Shown here one piece after another: positions 30,344 through 59,999 of a stretch of 64,000 nucleotides of DNA. Position numbers and translations under genes: made by a program. Below the pieces are notes generated by a model that saw only the letters and a list, made by a program, of their open reading frames with translations, was not told the origin of the DNA and made no database searches. Source of the stretch: Longimicrobiales bacterium. GTDB taxonomy: Bacteria; Gemmatimonadota; Gemmatimonadetes; Longimicrobiales; Gaopeijiaceae. Positions within the stretch are counted from its first letter, which is position 1. Each line of letters opens with the position of its first letter. The stretch covers positions 1,777,340 to 1,841,339 of the forward strand of contig OX638356.1 of assembly GCA_951813395.1 (NCBI GenBank), in the 5' to 3' direction.

Positions 30344-30949
30344 ATGGCACACATCAGGTACGTCGCGCGCTCGGACGCGGGCGAATTGCTCGCGGAGCTC
30401 TACGACCGGTACTCGGACTCCGGGGGACGGCTGGACAACATCCTGCGGATCCATTCCCTGAATCCGCCCACGATGCAGCACCACTACGACCTCTACCGGC
30501 ACCTGATGGCGGGTCCGTCCCCACTGTCGCGCGTCCAGAGGGAGATGATCGCCGTGGCGGTTTCGGCCGAGAACGATTGCTTCTACTGAATCCGGCACCA
30601 CGGGGCGGGTCTCCGTCGACTCACCGGCAATGCCGATCTTGCCGAGGCGCTGGCGTGCGGGCAGCGACCGCGCGCGCTGGCCGCGGCCGACGCGGCGATG
30701 CTCGACTACGCGGTCAAGCTGACCCGGGATCCGGGGAGCATGGAGGCGGATGACGTCGACCGGCTCAGGGATGTCGGTTTTGACGACCGCGCAGTCCTCG
30801 ACATCTGTCAGGTCGTGTCCTACTACAACTACGTGAATCGTCTGGCCGACGGCCTGGGCGTTGAGTTGGAGGAGGAGTGGGACGACGCTCGCCCCACGCC
30901 GGCATCACGCCCCGCGCCTGGCGACGACAAGCGCCGCGACCGCCCATGA
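30344..30949 (+). CDS. AhpD-like peroxidase-related selenoprotein (TGA at codon 82 read as Sec)
   Basis: 201 residues if the TGA at 30587-30589 is read through. The frame before it (MAHIRYVARSDAGELLAELY, SRVQREMIAVAVSAENDCFY) and after it (IRHHGAGLRRLTG, LDYAVKLTRDPGSMEADDVD, VLDICQVVSYYNYVNRLADG) together form one complete carboxymuconolactone-decarboxylase/AhpD-type peroxidase-related protein. The TGA sits exactly at the second Cys of the CxxC redox motif (C79-F-Y-U82), followed by the conserved His pair. A SECIS-like hairpin lies at the right distance. The far stop overlaps hutH as ATGA, so full-length reading is built into the operon. RBS GGAG precedes ATG 30344. AhpD-like selenoproteins are known in other bacteria. 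The alternative, a nonsense mutation, is less likely but not excluded; no sel genes are in view. Confidence 0.85.
30587..30627 (+). promoter_or_regulatory. putative bacterial SECIS element
   Basis: Directly after the TGA, CCGG (30592-30595) can pair with CCGG (30624-30627), and inside it ACGG (30600-30603) pairs with CCGT (30613-30616), leaving a loop that ends in GGTCT (30608-30612). GGTCT occupies bases +22 to +26 counted from the T of TGA, the same place as the SelB-recognised GGUCU loop in the E. coli fdhF SECIS. The stem pairing is my manual folding. Confidence 0.7.
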
Positions 30950-32580
30950 TCACGGTCGACGGACAAGGACTGACGCTGGCGGAACTGGAAGCCGTGGCGC
31001 GGGAACGCCGCCCGGTGCGCCTGCACGCGGAGGCTGCCCAACGCGTACGCAACGCGCGCGCCCTCCTCGAGGTGCTTCTTCGCGGCGACCGGCCGATCTA
31101 CGGAGTGAACACGGGGTTCGGCAGGCTCGCCGACGTGCGCATTTCCCCCGCCGACCAGCGCGCCCTGCAGCGCAACATGGTCCGCAGCCATGCCGCGGGC
31201 GTCGGGCGCCGGCTGCCGGCGGAGGAGGTCCGGGCCATCATGCTGCTCCGTGCCAATACGCTGGCGCGCGGGCAGTCGGGCTGTCGGCTCGTCGTCGTGG
31301 AGCGGCTGCTCGATCTCCTGAATCACGGTGTGCATCCGGAGGTGCCGGAGATCGGGTCGGTCGGCGCAAGCGGGGACCTCGCGCCGCTGGCGCATGTGGC
31401 CCTCGTGCTGACGGGGGAAGGGCAGGCCGAGCAGAACGGGGAGTTGAAGGACGCCGCCGAGGTGCTCCGCGCCGTCGATGTCGAGCCCCTCGACCTCTCC
31501 GAAAAGGAGGCGGTGGCGCTCATCAACGGCACTCAGGCGACGACCGGAATCGGAGCGCTTGCGCTTTGTCGCTTCGCCCGTGCCCTCGACGCGGCCGATG
31601 TCGCGGGGGCCATGTCGCTGGAGGGCCTCAAGGGCACCCCGGATCCGTTCCGAAGCGAAATCCACGCTGCCCGTCCGCATCCGGGCCAGATTTCGACCGC
31701 CCGGCGGCTGTGGTCGCTGCTGCAGGGATCCGGGATCCGCGAGTCGCATCGTACCGGAGACCCGCGCGTGCAGGATGCCTACTCGCTGCGGTGCATGCCG
31801 CAGGTGCACGGCGCGGCGAGGGAGGCATGCGGCTACGCACACCGCATTCTGGCCACCGAAGCGAATTCGACCACCGACAACCCGCTGGTCCTGCCGAGGG
31901 GGGCCGCGCGGGACGGGCGGGGGACGGACGCCGGCGCCGACGGGGAGGGCGCGGCTGGTGAACCGGCTCCGGGAATGGTGATCAGCGGAGGCAACTTCCA
32001 CGCTCAGATCGTCGCCCAGTGCCTGGACCTCGTGGCCATCGCGGCCGCCGACATGGCGTCGATTTGCGAGCGGCGGATCGACCGCCTGCTCAATCCCGAC
32101 CTCTCGGGACTGCCCGCCTTCCTCACGACACGGCCCGGCACCCGTTCGGGGCTGATGATCGCCCAGGTAACCGCCGCCGACGCGCTGTCCGAGATGCGCG
32201 TCCTTGCGACGCCTGCGAGTATCGATTCCGTGTCGACCAGCGCTTCCCAGGAGGATCACGTCTCCATGGGCATGGCCGCCGCCAGAAAGGTGCGACGGAG
32301 CGTGGAGCTTCTCGAGACCGTTCTCGCGGCCGAGTTCCTGTGCGCCGCCCAGGCGGTGGAGTTCCACCGTCCGCTCCGCGCGGGAGACGGTGTGGAGCGT
32401 GCGCTGGCAAGGGTGCGAGACCATGTCCCGCGCCTGACCGGGGACCGGCCCCTCGGTACCGACCTGGAGACGCTCGCGGCGCTGGTTCGTGCGGGTGAGC
32501 TGTCGCAGCCGGAAGCTGTCGACGAGGCCGGCCACGATGCCGCGGACGGGGATTCCGACGGCTTGCACCGCCAGACCTGA
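30946..32580 (+). CDS. hutH: histidine ammonia-lyase
   Basis: 544 residues from ATG 30946, which overlaps the selenoprotein stop. Converts L-histidine to trans-urocanate and ammonia, the first step of histidine breakdown. The MIO cofactor triad Ala-Ser-Gly lies in [31 protein letters not shown]-like [11 protein letters not shown], and [11 protein letters not shown] are also conserved. An unusual Gly/Asp/Ala-rich insert of about 25 residues (after [10 protein letters not shown], before MVISGGNFH) is not typical. Extra open frame to 30877 is rejected in favour of the ATGA overlap. Confidence 0.96.
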
Positions 32581-32593
32581 GGAGACCGGGGAG

Positions 32594-34261
32594 ATGGCAA
32601 CGACGATCACCGGCGGGGCACGCACGATCCGGGCTCCCCGCGGCGCGACGCCCACCTGCAAGGGATGGACCCAGGAAGCGGTGCTGCGGATGCTGATGAA
32701 CAATCTCGATCCCGAGGTGGCCGAGAAGCCGGAGGATCTGGTGGTCTACGGCGGGACGGGCAGGGCAGCACGGACATGGGCCGCCTTCGACGCGATTGTG
32801 GCGGCGTTGCGGGCGCTGGAAGACGACGAGACGCTGCTGGTGCAATCCGGGAAGCCCGTGGGCGTCTTCCGCACTCACGCCCACGCGCCTCGCGTGCTGA
32901 TCGCCAACTCGAACCTGGTTGGGCGCTGGGCCAACTGGGAGCACTTTCACGAGCTGGAGCGCCAGGGGCTCATGATGTACGGTCAGATGACCGCGGGCTC
33001 CTGGATCTACATCGGCACCCAGGGGATCCTGCAGGGCACCTACGAGACCTTCGGCGCCATCGCGCGGACCCACTTCGGCGGATCCCTGGCGGGACGCTGG
33101 ATCCTCACGGGCGGGATGGGGGGCATGGGCGGCGCACAACCCCTGGCGGGCACGATGAACGGGGCTGCGGTGCTCGTCGTCGAAGTGGATCCCGAGCGGA
33201 TCCGGCGCCGGCTCGAGAGCCGCTACTGCGACCGCATGACACGCGATCTCGACGAGGCCGTCGGCTGGGTGCTGGGGGCTGCCGGGGCGGGGGAGGCGCT
33301 CTCGGTGGGACTGGTCGGCAACTGCGCCGATGTGCTCCCGGAGCTGATCCGGCGCGGCGTGACGCCCGACGTCGTGACCGACCAGACCTCGGCCCACGAT
33401 CCGGTGGACGGCTATGTGCCCGCCGGCCTCTCGATCGACGAGGCCGCCGTCTTGCGACAACGCGATCGAGCCGGGTATCGCCGGCACGCGATGGCATCGA
33501 TCCGCAGACACTGCGAGGCCATCGTGGAGATGGCCGGGCGCGGCGCGGTAGCCGTCGACTACGGCAACAACCTCCGCGGTTACGCGCGGGACGCGGGCTT
33601 CGACAACGCCTTCGCCTACCCGGGCTTCGTGCCCGCCTACGTGCGCCCCCTGTTCTGCCTCGGCAAGGGACCGTTCCGGTGGGTCGCGCTTTCGGGCGAC
33701 CCCGCCGACATCCACCGAACCGACGACCTCGTGCTGGAGATGTTCCCCGACGACGAGCACCTCTGTCGCTGGATCCGGATGGCGCGGGAACAAGTGGCGT
33801 TCCAGGGGCTGCCCGCGCGGATCTGCTGGTTGGGGCAGGGAGAGAGGGCGGCGTTCGGCGTCGCCATGAACGATCTGGTCGCCAGCGGCGAGTTATCCGC
33901 CCCGATCGTGATCGGACGCGACCACCTCGACACGGGCTCGGTGGCGTCACCCTTCCGCGAAACCGAAGCGATGAAGGACGGAACCGACGCCGTGGCGGAC
34001 TGGCCGGTCCTCAATGCGCTCCTCAACACGGCGTCCGGCGCGAGCTGGGTGTCGTTCCACCACGGCGGAGGCGTGGGCATCGGGGACTCGTTGCACGCGG
34101 GCCAGGTCCTCGTGGCCGACGGCACCCCCGGGATGCGGACCCGGATCGAGCGCGTGCTGACCAACGATCCCGGACTCGGCGTGGCCAGGCACGCGGATGC
34201 CGGATACGAAGAGGCCATCGCGACGGCTCGCGAGAAGGGGGTCCGGATCCCGATGCCGTGA
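32594..34261 (+). CDS. hutU: urocanate hydratase
   Basis: 555 residues, the usual length. NAD-dependent conversion of urocanate to imidazolone propionate. Signatures: [46 protein letters not shown] (NAD site), DQTSAHDP and [16 protein letters not shown] 32594 follows GGGGAG, 13 bases after the hutH stop. Transcribed with hutH. Confidence 0.97.
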
Positions 34262-34309: not shown

Positions 34310-35773
34310 TCAGCCCCCCGGCCCCAGTCCCCGCACGGCGTCCGCATACGCGCGGCCAACCGCCTCCTCGCGCGGGTGACGCCCGTCCCTCACCATCCAC
34401 TCTCCTCCGACCATCACGTCACGCACCGGGTTGTCCGTTCCGGAGAAGATCCACGAATCGAGCACGGCGTGACCGCGGCGCCCCACCAGCGCAGGGTGGT
34501 CCGCGTCGAGAACCACCAGATCCGCGCGCATCCCGCGCTCGATGCTGCCGCAGTCCACGGCCAGCGCCCGGGACCCGCCCCGCCAGGCCCGTCGAAGGAG
34601 CGCCCCACCCGCGCCGGAGAGCGCCGCGCCCCCGGCTCCCGGTCCGGCGTCCCCCGGCACGCCACGGCTCTCCAACGCCAGCCGCTGCCCGTAGTCCAGC
34701 AGGCGCAGTTCCTCGACCGGGCTGCGCGACACGTGACTGTCCGTGCCGATGCCGAAGCTTCCGCCCGCCGCCGCAAAGGTGCGCAGCGGAAACAGCCCGT
34801 CACCCAGATTGGCCTCGGTGGTCGGGCACAGTCCCACCACCGCGCCCCGCCGTGCGACGGCGTCCAGCTCCGCTTCGGTCGCGTGCGTGGCGTGAATCAG
34901 GCACCACCGTTCGTCGACAGGCGCGTGTTCCAGGAGCCACTCCACGGGGGGCGCGCCCCGGTCGGCAACACACTCGCGCACCTCTCGCCGCTGCTCGGCC
35001 ACGTGAACGTGCACGCAGGCGGTATCGCCTCCGGCGCTCCCGGCGAGGCGCGCCGCCAACCGGTGAAACGAACGCGGGGACGCCCCTCTCAGGCTGTGCA
35101 GCGCCCATCCCAGGGACACGGAGGGGTCGTCCCGCTCCTCGCTCCGCAGCAGCTCGTGCAACCGGGCCGCGCCCGCCATGTCCATCTGGAACCGCTTCTG
35201 ACCGCCTGCGAGCGGCCTGCCGCCGAAACCGCCCGAATCGTACACCGCCGGCAGGTGCACCAGGCGCATCCCCGCCGTCCGGGCCGCGGCCAGGATGCGC
35301 CGGCTCATCTCCGCGGGATCGTCGTATGCGCCGCCTCCGGGCGGGTGGTGGAGGTAGTGGAATTCGCCGACGCAGGTAAAGCCGGCCTTCAGAAGCTCGA
35401 CATACAGCTGGGCCGTGATCGCCTCCACGTCGTCGGGCGTCAGGCGTTCGAGGAACGAGTACATGACCTCGCGCCAGCCCCGGAACGAATCGGGCCCCGG
35501 TCCCTCGGCCAGGCCCGCCAGCGCGCGCTGGAACGAATGGCTGTGCACGTTCGGGACGCCGGGCACCGCCCACCCCGCCACGCGTTCGCCCCGCAGTTCG
35601 TCGATGCCCGCGTTCACCTCGACGATCCTGCCCCGCCTGTCCACCAGGATCTCGACATCACGCTGCCAGCCGTCCCCGACCAGGATCCGGTCGAACCGCC
35701 AGGCGCGGTACCCGGGGTTTGCATTCAGCGCGTCTTCGGCCACCGTACTCCTCGGCTCGTCGTTGGAACGCAT
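34310..35773 (-). CDS. hutF: formimidoylglutamate deiminase
   Basis: About 487 residues from ATG 35773 (ATG 35794 and TTG 35821 are alternatives). An amidohydrolase that turns N-formimidoyl-glutamate into N-formyl-glutamate, marking the formylglutamate branch of histidine degradation. Metal-site segments: VPNVHSHSFQRAL, VGEFHYLHHPPGG, CVHVHVAEQRREV, CLIHATHATEAELD and GTDSHVSRSPVEELRLL. It faces hutI head to head and hutU tail to tail. The following enzyme HutG is not in this window. Confidence 0.93.
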   Translation of the reverse strand: MRSNDEPRSTVAEDALNANPGYRAWRFDRILVGDGWQRDVEILVDRRGRIVEVNAGIDELRGERVAGWAVPGVPNVHSHSFQRALAGLAEGPGPDSFRGWREVMYSFLERLTPDDVEAITAQLYVELLKAGFTCVGEFHYLHHPPGGGAYDDPAEMSRRILAAARTAGMRLVHLPAVYDSGGFGGRPLAGGQKRFQMDMAGAARLHELLRSEERDDPSVSLGWALHSLRGASPRSFHRLAARLAGSAGGDTACVHVHVAEQRREVRECVADRGAPPVEWLLEHAPVDERWCLIHATHATEAELDAVARRGAVVGLCPTTEANLGDGLFPLRTFAAAGGSFGIGTDSHVSRSPVEELRLLDYGQRLALESRGVPGDAGPGAGGAALSGAGGALLRRAWRGGSRALAVDCGSIERGMRADLVVLDADHPALVGRRGHAVLDSWIFSGTDNPVRDVMVGGEWMVRDGRHPREEAVGRAYADAVRGLGPGG

Positions 35774-35851
35774 TGCGAAGTGGCGCAGAGCCATGCGACA
35801 ATCTCGCGCCAGACGCCTCAATCTATGTCTCCGTCACGGAACCGCCGCCAC

Positions 35852-37078
35852 ATGCCCACCAAGCCCTGGGACCGACTCTGGACGGGCGTCAACCTCGCGA
35901 CCATGACCGATGCGTCCCTGGGGGTCATCCGGCAGGGCGCGATCGCGGCCTCCGGAGGACGGATCGCCTGGCTGGGACGGGAGGCCGATCTGCCGGCAAC
36001 CCACACACGGATGGCCCGGGACGTCGTCGCGTGCGGCGGCGCGTGGCTCACCCCGGGTCTCATCGACTGCCACACCCATATCGTCTTCGGGGGCGACCGA
36101 ACCGCGGACTTCCGTCGCCGGCTCCACGGCGAGTCCTACGCCGACATCGCGAGGAGCGGCGGGGGCATCATGTCCACGGTGCGGGCCACCCGGGCGGCCA
36201 CGAACGAGGACCTGACCGCCCGCGCGGTCGCCAGGGGCCGCGAGCTGTGCTCTTGGGGCGTTACCACCATCGAGGTCAAGTCCGGCTACGGACTGGATCT
36301 GCCAACCGAGTTGCGCATGCTCGAGGTCGCCGCCGGCCTCTCCAGCCAACTTCCGGCGGATATCGCGCCCACGCTGCTCGCCGCGCACACGCTTCCGCCC
36401 GAATACGCCGGACGCCGCCAAGACTACGTCGGCCTCGTCGTCGATCGCATCCTGCCCGCCGCGCTGGAGCAGGGCCACGCGACGGCCATCGACGTCTTCT
36501 GCGAAGACATCGCGTTCACCCCGGCCGAAAGCCGCCGCATCCTGGAAGCCGGGATCGGGGCGGGGCTTCATGGCCGGCTCCACGCCGACCAGCTCACCGA
36601 CCTGGACGGAGGCGCGCTGGCGGCCGCGGTGGGCGCCCGCTCGGCGGACCACCTCGAGTACCTGTCGCGACGGGGAGTCGACGCCATGGCCGGAGCGGAC
36701 GTGTGCGCGGTCCTGCTTCCCGGCGCGGCGTACACCCTGGGGGCGGACCGCAGGCCGCCCGTGCCCGCCCTGCGGCGGGGCGGCGTGACAATGGCCATCG
36801 CCACCGACGCCAACCCCGGTTCCTCGCCGATCACCCATGTGGGCGCGGTGATGAACCTTGCGTGCATCCTCTTCGGGCTCACCCCGGAAGAGTCCCTGCT
36901 GGGCGTGACGGCCGCCGCGGCGAAGGTGCTGGCCCTGGACCATGATCGGGGAACGCTCCGGCCCGGGATGCGCGCCGACTTCGCGCTGTGGGACGTTCGC
37001 GACGTCGTGGAGCTGTGTTACTGGGTCGGAGCCAGTCCACTCCGGTCGCTGGTCAAGGACGCAAACCCCGTCCCGTAG
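35852..37078 (+). CDS. hutI: imidazolonepropionase
   Basis: 408 residues from ATG 35852 (ATG 35825 possible). Hydrolyses imidazolone propionate to N-formimidoyl-glutamate. Amidohydrolase motifs: LIDCHTHIVFGGDRTADF, TTIEVKSGYGLD, LAAHTLPPEYAGR, HGRLHADQLTD and IATDANPGSSPITH. Divergent from hutF with about 80 bases between them, which must hold both promoters; no clear operator could be identified. Confidence 0.96.
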   Translation: MPTKPWDRLWTGVNLATMTDASLGVIRQGAIAASGGRIAWLGREADLPATHTRMARDVVACGGAWLTPGLIDCHTHIVFGGDRTADFRRRLHGESYADIARSGGGIMSTVRATRAATNEDLTARAVARGRELCSWGVTTIEVKSGYGLDLPTELRMLEVAAGLSSQLPADIAPTLLAAHTLPPEYAGRRQDYVGLVVDRILPAALEQGHATAIDVFCEDIAFTPAESRRILEAGIGAGLHGRLHADQLTDLDGGALAAAVGARSADHLEYLSRRGVDAMAGADVCAVLLPGAAYTLGADRRPPVPALRRGGVTMAIATDANPGSSPITHVGAVMNLACILFGLTPEESLLGVTAAAAKVLALDHDRGTLRPGMRADFALWDVRDVVELCYWVGASPLRSLVKDANPVP

Positions 37079-58697: not shown

Positions 58698-59999
58698 ATG
58701 AAAGTCGTGCTGGGATACTCGGGCGGTCTGGACACTTCGGTCATCGTGCCCTGGCTGCGCGAGAACTACGGGGCCGATGTCGTGTGCATGGCCGCGGACG
58801 TGGGGCAGCGGGGCGGCGTCGCGAAGCTTGCCGGGAAGGCATTCGCTACCGGGGCTTCGGCTTTTTTCGGCGAGGATCTGCGTGAGGAGTTCGTCTCCGG
58901 GTACGTCTTTCCGGTCCTGCGTTCGGGCGCGGTCTACAGCCGGAAATACCTGCTCGGGACCGCCATCGCACGCCCGCTGATCTCGCGCCGCATGGTCGAG
59001 ATCGCCCGCAGAACGGGCGCGCATTCCCTGGCACACGGATGTACGGGGAAGGGGAACGATCAGCTGCGCTTCGAACTGTCCTTCGCCGCCCTGGCGCCCG
59101 ACCTGCGGGTGATTGCTCCCTGGAGGGAGTGGGACATCAGCTCGCGCGAAGACGCGTTCGAGTACGCGGAAAAGCGAGGGATTTCGCTGGAGGGGGTCGA
59201 CGAGGAGAAGCTCTACTCGCGCGACGAGAACCTGTGGCACATAAGCCACGAGGGCGGTCCCCTCGAGGATCCCGCGAACGCTCCCGGGGACGATGTGTTC
59301 CTGTGGACGCGCGATCCCGCCCTCGCGCCCGATGTCGCGCTCGAGCTGGAGGTGGGGTTCGAGCAGGGTGTGCCGGTGACGATCGACGGAGAGGCGCTCT
59401 CGCCCCTCGCGCTGCTCGAGACCCTGAACGCGGTCGGATCGGAGCACGGTGTGGGCCGCGCCGACGTGATCGAGGATCGCGTGGTCGGGATCAAGTCTCG
59501 CGGCGTTTACGAGACGCCCGGTGGCACGATCCTTCTCACCGCGATCCAGGAACTCGAGCAGCTGGTACTTTCCAGGCGGTGTCTGGGGCTCAAGGACCAG
59601 CTTGCGCCGCGCTACGCCGACCTTGTCTACGAGGGGCGCTGGTGGACGCCCGAGCGGGAGGCGCTGGACGCGATGGTCGATTCGCTGATGAGAAACGTCA
59701 CCGGGACGGTGCGCCTGCGGCTGTTCAAGGGGCAGGCGACCGTGCTGTCTCGCAGCGCGCCCGCATCCCTTTACGACCTCGATCTCGCGTCCTTCGGGGC
59801 GAGCGAAGGCTACGCCCACAGCGACTCGTCGGGCTTCGTGAAGCTCTTCAGCCTGCCTCAGCGCGCCGTTGCCGCCCAGGGGGTCGCGACCGCGAATGCC
59901 GCCGTCGTGCCGGCTTCGGATACGCCCGCCTCTCGACCGGTCGCGCCCAACGGCAGGCAGTCTCGCGCCGGCGATCTGGTCCACGCGAGGCGCGGCTGA
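58698..59999 (+). CDS. argG: argininosuccinate synthase
   Basis: 433 residues. Joins citrulline and aspartate with ATP. N-terminal ATP PP-loop YSGGLDTSVIVPWL, then LAHGCTGKGNDQLRFELSF, SREDAFEYAEKRGI, WHISHEGGPLEDP and SRGVYETPGGTILL. Length slightly exceeds the usual 400 because of a Pro/Ala-rich C-terminal tail. RBS GGGGGA precedes ATG 58698. Confidence 0.96.
   Translation: MKVVLGYSGGLDTSVIVPWLRENYGADVVCMAADVGQRGGVAKLAGKAFATGASAFFGEDLREEFVSGYVFPVLRSGAVYSRKYLLGTAIARPLISRRMVEIARRTGAHSLAHGCTGKGNDQLRFELSFAALAPDLRVIAPWREWDISSREDAFEYAEKRGISLEGVDEEKLYSRDENLWHISHEGGPLEDPANAPGDDVFLWTRDPALAPDVALELEVGFEQGVPVTIDGEALSPLALLETLNAVGSEHGVGRADVIEDRVVGIKSRGVYETPGGTILLTAIQELEQLVLSRRCLGLKDQLAPRYADLVYEGRWWTPEREALDAMVDSLMRNVTGTVRLRLFKGQATVLSRSAPASLYDLDLASFGASEGYAHSDSSGFVKLFSLPQRAVAAQGVATANAAVVPASDTPASRPVAPNGRQSRAGDLVHARRG

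Follow-up and report, generated by a model that had tools for sequence, protein, structure and literature searches.

A predicted AhpD-like selenoprotein encoded directly upstream of hutH in Gemmatimonadota

In this work, we address a question raised by a single codon in the genome of a Longimicrobiales bacterium: does the TGA found within an AhpD-like reading frame, exactly at its redox motif, mark a broken gene, or does it encode selenocysteine (Sec)? The frame lies in a stretch of 64,000 nucleotides (contig OX638356.1), hereafter the window, whose numbering is used throughout unless the contig is named. With TGA82 taken as a residue, the coding sequence (30344-30949, + strand) specifies 201 amino acids and extends from ATG to a terminal TGA at 30947-30949. 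The in-frame TGA at 30587-30589 is residue 82, with the local context ...SAENDCFYUIRHHGAGLR.... Direct reading of the codon agrees with the original prediction, which had put it exactly at the second redox position of a CxxC motif (C79-F-Y-U82), ahead of the histidine pair (His85-His86). As also predicted, standard gene calling breaks the gene here; its two halves are listed as separate open reading frames (ORFs) of 81 and 83 amino acids. The elements of the locus on which the argument depends are the following.

30542-30544, + strand: codon of Glu67, corresponding to Glu118 in the proton relay of M. tuberculosis AhpD; invariant, 12 residues before Cys79, like Glu118 to Cys130
30578-30580, + strand: codon of Cys79, the first redox cysteine, corresponding to AhpD Cys130; invariant in the alignment, spacing as in PMC3141380
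30587-30589, + strand: in-frame TGA, predicted Sec82 codon; a column with Sec or Cys only in 96 distinct loci
30599-30601, + strand: codon of His86, corresponding to AhpD His137; invariant, 4 residues past U82, like Cys133 to His137
30600-30616, + strand: predicted bacterial SECIS hairpin, stem ACGGGG/CUCCGU and loop CGGGU, starting 10 nt past the TGA; comparative evidence

Joined over the one TGA, the two same-frame segments give the full AhpD/CMD-type protein that had been proposed. The product matches the NCBIfam family TIGR01926 (peroxidase-related enzyme) with an E-value of 2.3e-40 and a score of 138.3 bits (cut-off 81.8), and this match spans the TGA, covering residues 7-175 of 202 and nearly the whole model (positions 6-175 of 178). 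Pfam CMD is matched as well (E=1.5e-10). The AlphaFold model is all-helical, as expected of TIGR01926, with a mean pLDDT of 91.6, and the nearest solved folds found by Foldseek are AhpD-like (3c1l, 2pfx, 6k40, 2oyo and 2prr), which are also the nearest by sequence.

The reading of homologues, in relatives and more widely in Gemmatimonadota, gave 96 distinct loci after exclusion of four duplicate records; related records by sequence are Gemmatimonadota metagenome-assembled genomes. The codon at the Sec column is TGA in 85 loci and TGC or TGT (Cys) in the remaining 11, with no other residue at all, so that the homologue alignment called for by the original prediction gave Cys or Sec exclusively. 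All 24 aligned orthologues have TGA at the same column, and none of them contains a further in-frame stop or a frameshift up to residue 172. Across 211 pairs of aligned orthologues the median dN/dS was 0.21 before the TGA and 0.25 after it, with a maximum of 0.51 after it; purifying selection is thus indicated by the alignments for the sequence 3' of the TGA, through residue 172. Placing the Sec and Cys labels on a 98-row tree takes only 3 changes, versus 10.6 when the labels are shuffled. Three divergent homologues were noted. Two distant AhpD-like ones, L080 and L085 (genomes G047 and G037), have an in-frame TGA with the first Cys replaced (GGAAU and GGAPU, respectively) and possibly represent a lone-Sec form devoid of the resolving Cys. 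The third, L084 (also G047), carries CPFU with TGA on a long branch, and its membership of the family is not clear.

The genome of the window (4.09 Mb, one contig) holds one clear copy each of selA, selB, selD and tRNA-Sec, all four of the genes that a search had been recommended for. Scores were 489.7 bits for selA, with the ORF uninterrupted, 313.5 bits for selB (cut-off 242, a 651-aa ORF) and 378.3 bits for selD; tRNA-Sec(UCA) reached 79.7 bits against a gathering score of 47 and was called by ARAGORN as tRNA-SeC with anticodon tca. The selD gene (73954-74880 of the contig) has its own in-frame TGA, in the motif GAGUACK, and SelD is likewise a predicted selenoprotein. When the whole genome was searched with the protein, two loci came up: the gene itself and, at 2871966-2872517 of the contig, a paralogue that is 45% identical, belongs to TIGR01926 and has TGA at the equivalent codon; the paralogue forms its own Sec clade, conserved across the phylum. 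By a hand count over genomes that are not independent of each other, selA was found in 32 of 33 relatives having a TGA homologue, as against 12 of the 26 relatives in which none was read. In the former group, the one genome where selA was not found is assembled into 830 contigs and is 88% complete. Two of the three Cys-only genomes among the relatives checked lack selA.

Bacterial SECIS elements are hairpins positioned shortly past the UGA, whose small apical loop contains a G (PMC1088965), and the window hairpin agrees with these in location and loop guanosine. Within the subfamily of the window gene its consensus is ACGGRG-CGGGN-CUCCGY; in 27 distinct sequences 96.3% of the pair cells are standard, versus 30-54% in slid controls, and the variable third base of a Gly codon in the stem is only A or G, opposite U. 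Two-sided compensatory changes number zero in this subfamily. In the paralogue family the hairpin has another sequence, GAYCUC-loop-GAGRUC; it is 100% paired, and four sequences show a two-sided exchange of C-G for U-A. A generic test, devised after the hairpins had been seen, required, 12-32 nt past the codon, at least 5 pairs and a loop of 4-7 nt with GG near its start; it was passed by 80 of 85 Sec loci, by 2 of 11 Cys loci and by 6.8% of upstream control codons. The five Sec loci failing it are of the paralogue family, with a GACCUC/GAGGUC stem and GU instead of GG in the loop. Folding of the window copy on its own, 3' of the TGA, does not favour the hairpin, which is not the minimum free energy structure and has unremarkable z-scores. 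Since single-sequence folding of the region gave no signal, the case for a SECIS element rests on comparison, which does support it. The Rfam scan of the window at gathering scores returned two tRNAs and nothing else. A 98-nt tRNA-Thr(cgt) called by ARAGORN at 59451-59548 (- strand) is absent from these Rfam tRNA matches, and may be a false call or an insertion-bearing tRNA.

If the AhpD-like gene were decaying and the TGA a nonsense mutation in it, the two separate ORFs of 81 and 83 amino acids produced by standard callers would be explained. Such decay can hardly be reconciled with a TGA shared by 85 of 96 loci and by the gene's own paralogue, with the lack of any other stop or frameshift in the 24 aligned orthologues, or with dN/dS values far below 1 after the TGA. 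Conservation of the TGA and its flanking sequence led us to reject the pseudogene, whose probability we consider negligible, and the original view that a chance nonsense mutation is unlikely holds on the same shared column. Decaying copies in relatives, which would have spoken against a selenoprotein, were not seen where the gene is absent: upstream of hutH in the gene-less relatives no convincing AhpD remnant was found, the best match having E=0.008 over 20 residues.

An intact gene could still end functionally at the TGA, its product being the 81-aa N-terminal piece or a protein made by re-starting downstream. An ATG-initiated ORF does exist at 30698-30949, and most ribosomes would halt at a Sec UGA when selenium is low. 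However, residue 82, His86 and the subsequent helices are conserved as one AhpD fold, purifying selection persists through residue 172 and the Cys homologues are uninterrupted, which makes functional truncation very improbable. Decoding of TGA as another residue, such as Trp or Cys, through a code change or a suppressor is scarcely credible either: the Cys found in non-TGA homologues is also compatible with a Cys-inserting suppressor, but TGA is at the same time the terminator of this gene and of most orthologues, the genome has a dedicated tRNA-Sec(UCA) with SelA, SelB and SelD, and the SECIS-like hairpin goes with TGA and mostly not with TGC. A changed code was rejected on these three grounds. 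We therefore read codon 82 as selenocysteine and the gene as encoding an AhpD-like TIGR01926 selenoprotein, at a probability of about 0.96 on sequence evidence. The "probable selenoprotein" of the original prediction is upheld by the sel machinery, by a column of Sec or Cys only and by the lack of decaying copies.

In the proposed mechanism, SelB with Sec-tRNA(Sec), recruited by the hairpin at 30600-30616, would decode UGA 30587-30589 as Sec82. Nucleophilic attack would then come from the Sec82 selenol and resolution from the Cys79 thiol, while protons would be relayed, as in AhpD, through Glu67, Tyr81 and His86. Glu67, Cys79, C/U82 and His86 are invariant in the alignment and in their spacing match the M. 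tuberculosis AhpD residues Glu118, Cys130, Cys133 and His137; where AhpD has His132 the window protein has Tyr81, as in PA0269 (PMC3141380). The M. tuberculosis enzyme, which works with AhpC, also carries the motif at another chain position. The Cys-type structures 3c1l (Mlr4105), 2pfx, 6k40, 2oyo and 2prr share the fold of the window protein with TM-scores of about 0.8-0.9, and in 3c1l and 2pfx a CYC or CFYC motif aligns with C79-F-Y-U82, with Cys and not Sec at the second position. The substrate reduced would be a (hydro)peroxide or a related oxidant. By analogy, peroxidase chemistry is perhaps the somewhat favoured activity; the related PA0269 has only weak peroxidase activity (PMC3141380), and what TIGR01926 proteins do is for the most part deduced. 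For the window protein we infer Sec insertion and, likewise, the activity, reductant and substrate of what would be a thiol/selenol oxidoreductase.

The selenoprotein family as such is already known. AhpD-like CxxU families were first reported in 2005 from Sargasso Sea data (PMC1088965) and again in 2008 (PMC2398784), and a 2026 review lists "AhpD-like protein, TIGR01926, CxxU" among prokaryotic selenoproteins, with MCB9421940.1 as the exemplar (PMC13188914). The window protein shares with this entry the family, above cut-off, and the Sec at the second CxxC position, while it differs in coming from Gemmatimonadota, in being encoded directly upstream of hutH and in having a second Sec paralogue in the genome. 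With NF041238 (AhpD_rel_CFYUT, alkylhydroperoxidase-related (seleno)protein) it has the AhpD domain and the CFYU motif in common, but membership was rejected, since the score of 57.1 bits lies below the cut-off of 175 and only part of the 357-position model is matched; the paralogue scores 74.9 bits against the same cut-off. The association with hutH was not found described in open-access papers, where nothing on point was met concerning a link between Sec and hutH, or Sec with translational coupling. The histidine-utilisation (hut) genes of the window are given below.

30946-30949, + strand: ATGA overlap of the hutH start (30946-30948) with the terminal TGA of the selenoprotein gene (30947-30949), read from the sequence
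30946-32580, + strand: hutH, histidine ammonia-lyase (TIGR01225, 648.9 bits, cut-off 539.15)
32489-34261, + strand: hutU, urocanate hydratase (TIGR01228, 939.8 bits); longest ORF, match from residue 45 (about 32621)
34310-35821, - strand: hutF, formimidoylglutamate deiminase (TIGR02022, 523.2 bits; NF006684, 569.4 bits)
35900-37078, + strand: hutI, imidazolonepropionase (TIGR01224, 419.1 bits); the part scanned, start may be slightly upstream

Adjacency to hutH is conserved. Among 38 orthologues at least 57% identical and with a readable flank, 34 have hutH directly downstream, and in one more (L047), cut by a contig end, the coordinates place hutH beside the gene. Relative to the stop, hutH starts at -1 (the 4-base overlap) in 27 of the 34 hut-linked orthologues and 6 nt past it in five. 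Since the gene is directly upstream of hutH/hutU with a 4-base overlap, the selenoprotein and histidine ammonia-lyase probably share one mRNA and are translationally coupled. No sigma-70 promoter or terminator pattern was found near the gene. The converse of the adjacency does not hold, as several relatives, some same-genus genomes included, have hutH without the selenoprotein gene, so that the gene is dispensable for histidine catabolism. One internal TGA was reported in each of two hutH matches from relatives (G020:C107:57543-59069 and G007:C138:651-2168), for which faulty assembly or an artefact at the N terminus could be responsible. A possible reason for the pairing would be protection of the hut enzymes, or removal of peroxide during histidine catabolism.

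The arrangement allows for one addition to the Sec reading, in which read-through of UGA82 would meter hutH translation, since no ribosome that halted there would arrive at the overlapping hutH start, so that low selenium would mean less histidine catabolism. The stop/start overlap in 27 orthologues and the adjacency in 34 of 38 are consistent with such a gate, as is the lack of a strong Shine-Dalgarno motif, by eye, just 5' of the hutH start in the window. On the other hand, overlaps of this kind are common at bacterial operon junctions and may reflect co-transcription alone, five orthologues start hutH past the stop, and same-genus genomes do have hutH without the gene. We consider selenium sensing unlikely; if true, a selenoprotein gene would translationally meter a catabolic operon throughout a Gemmatimonadota family.

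Obtained results correct a gene which standard annotation would split, and bring the predicted selenoprotein genes of this genome to at least three, two AhpD-like ones and selD. They also indicate that the AhpD-like Sec form is widespread in Gemmatimonadota. A predicted redox selenoprotein heading the hut genes across a family is unexpected, and it offers a concrete hypothesis on the role of this protein and on how amino-acid catabolism may depend on selenium.
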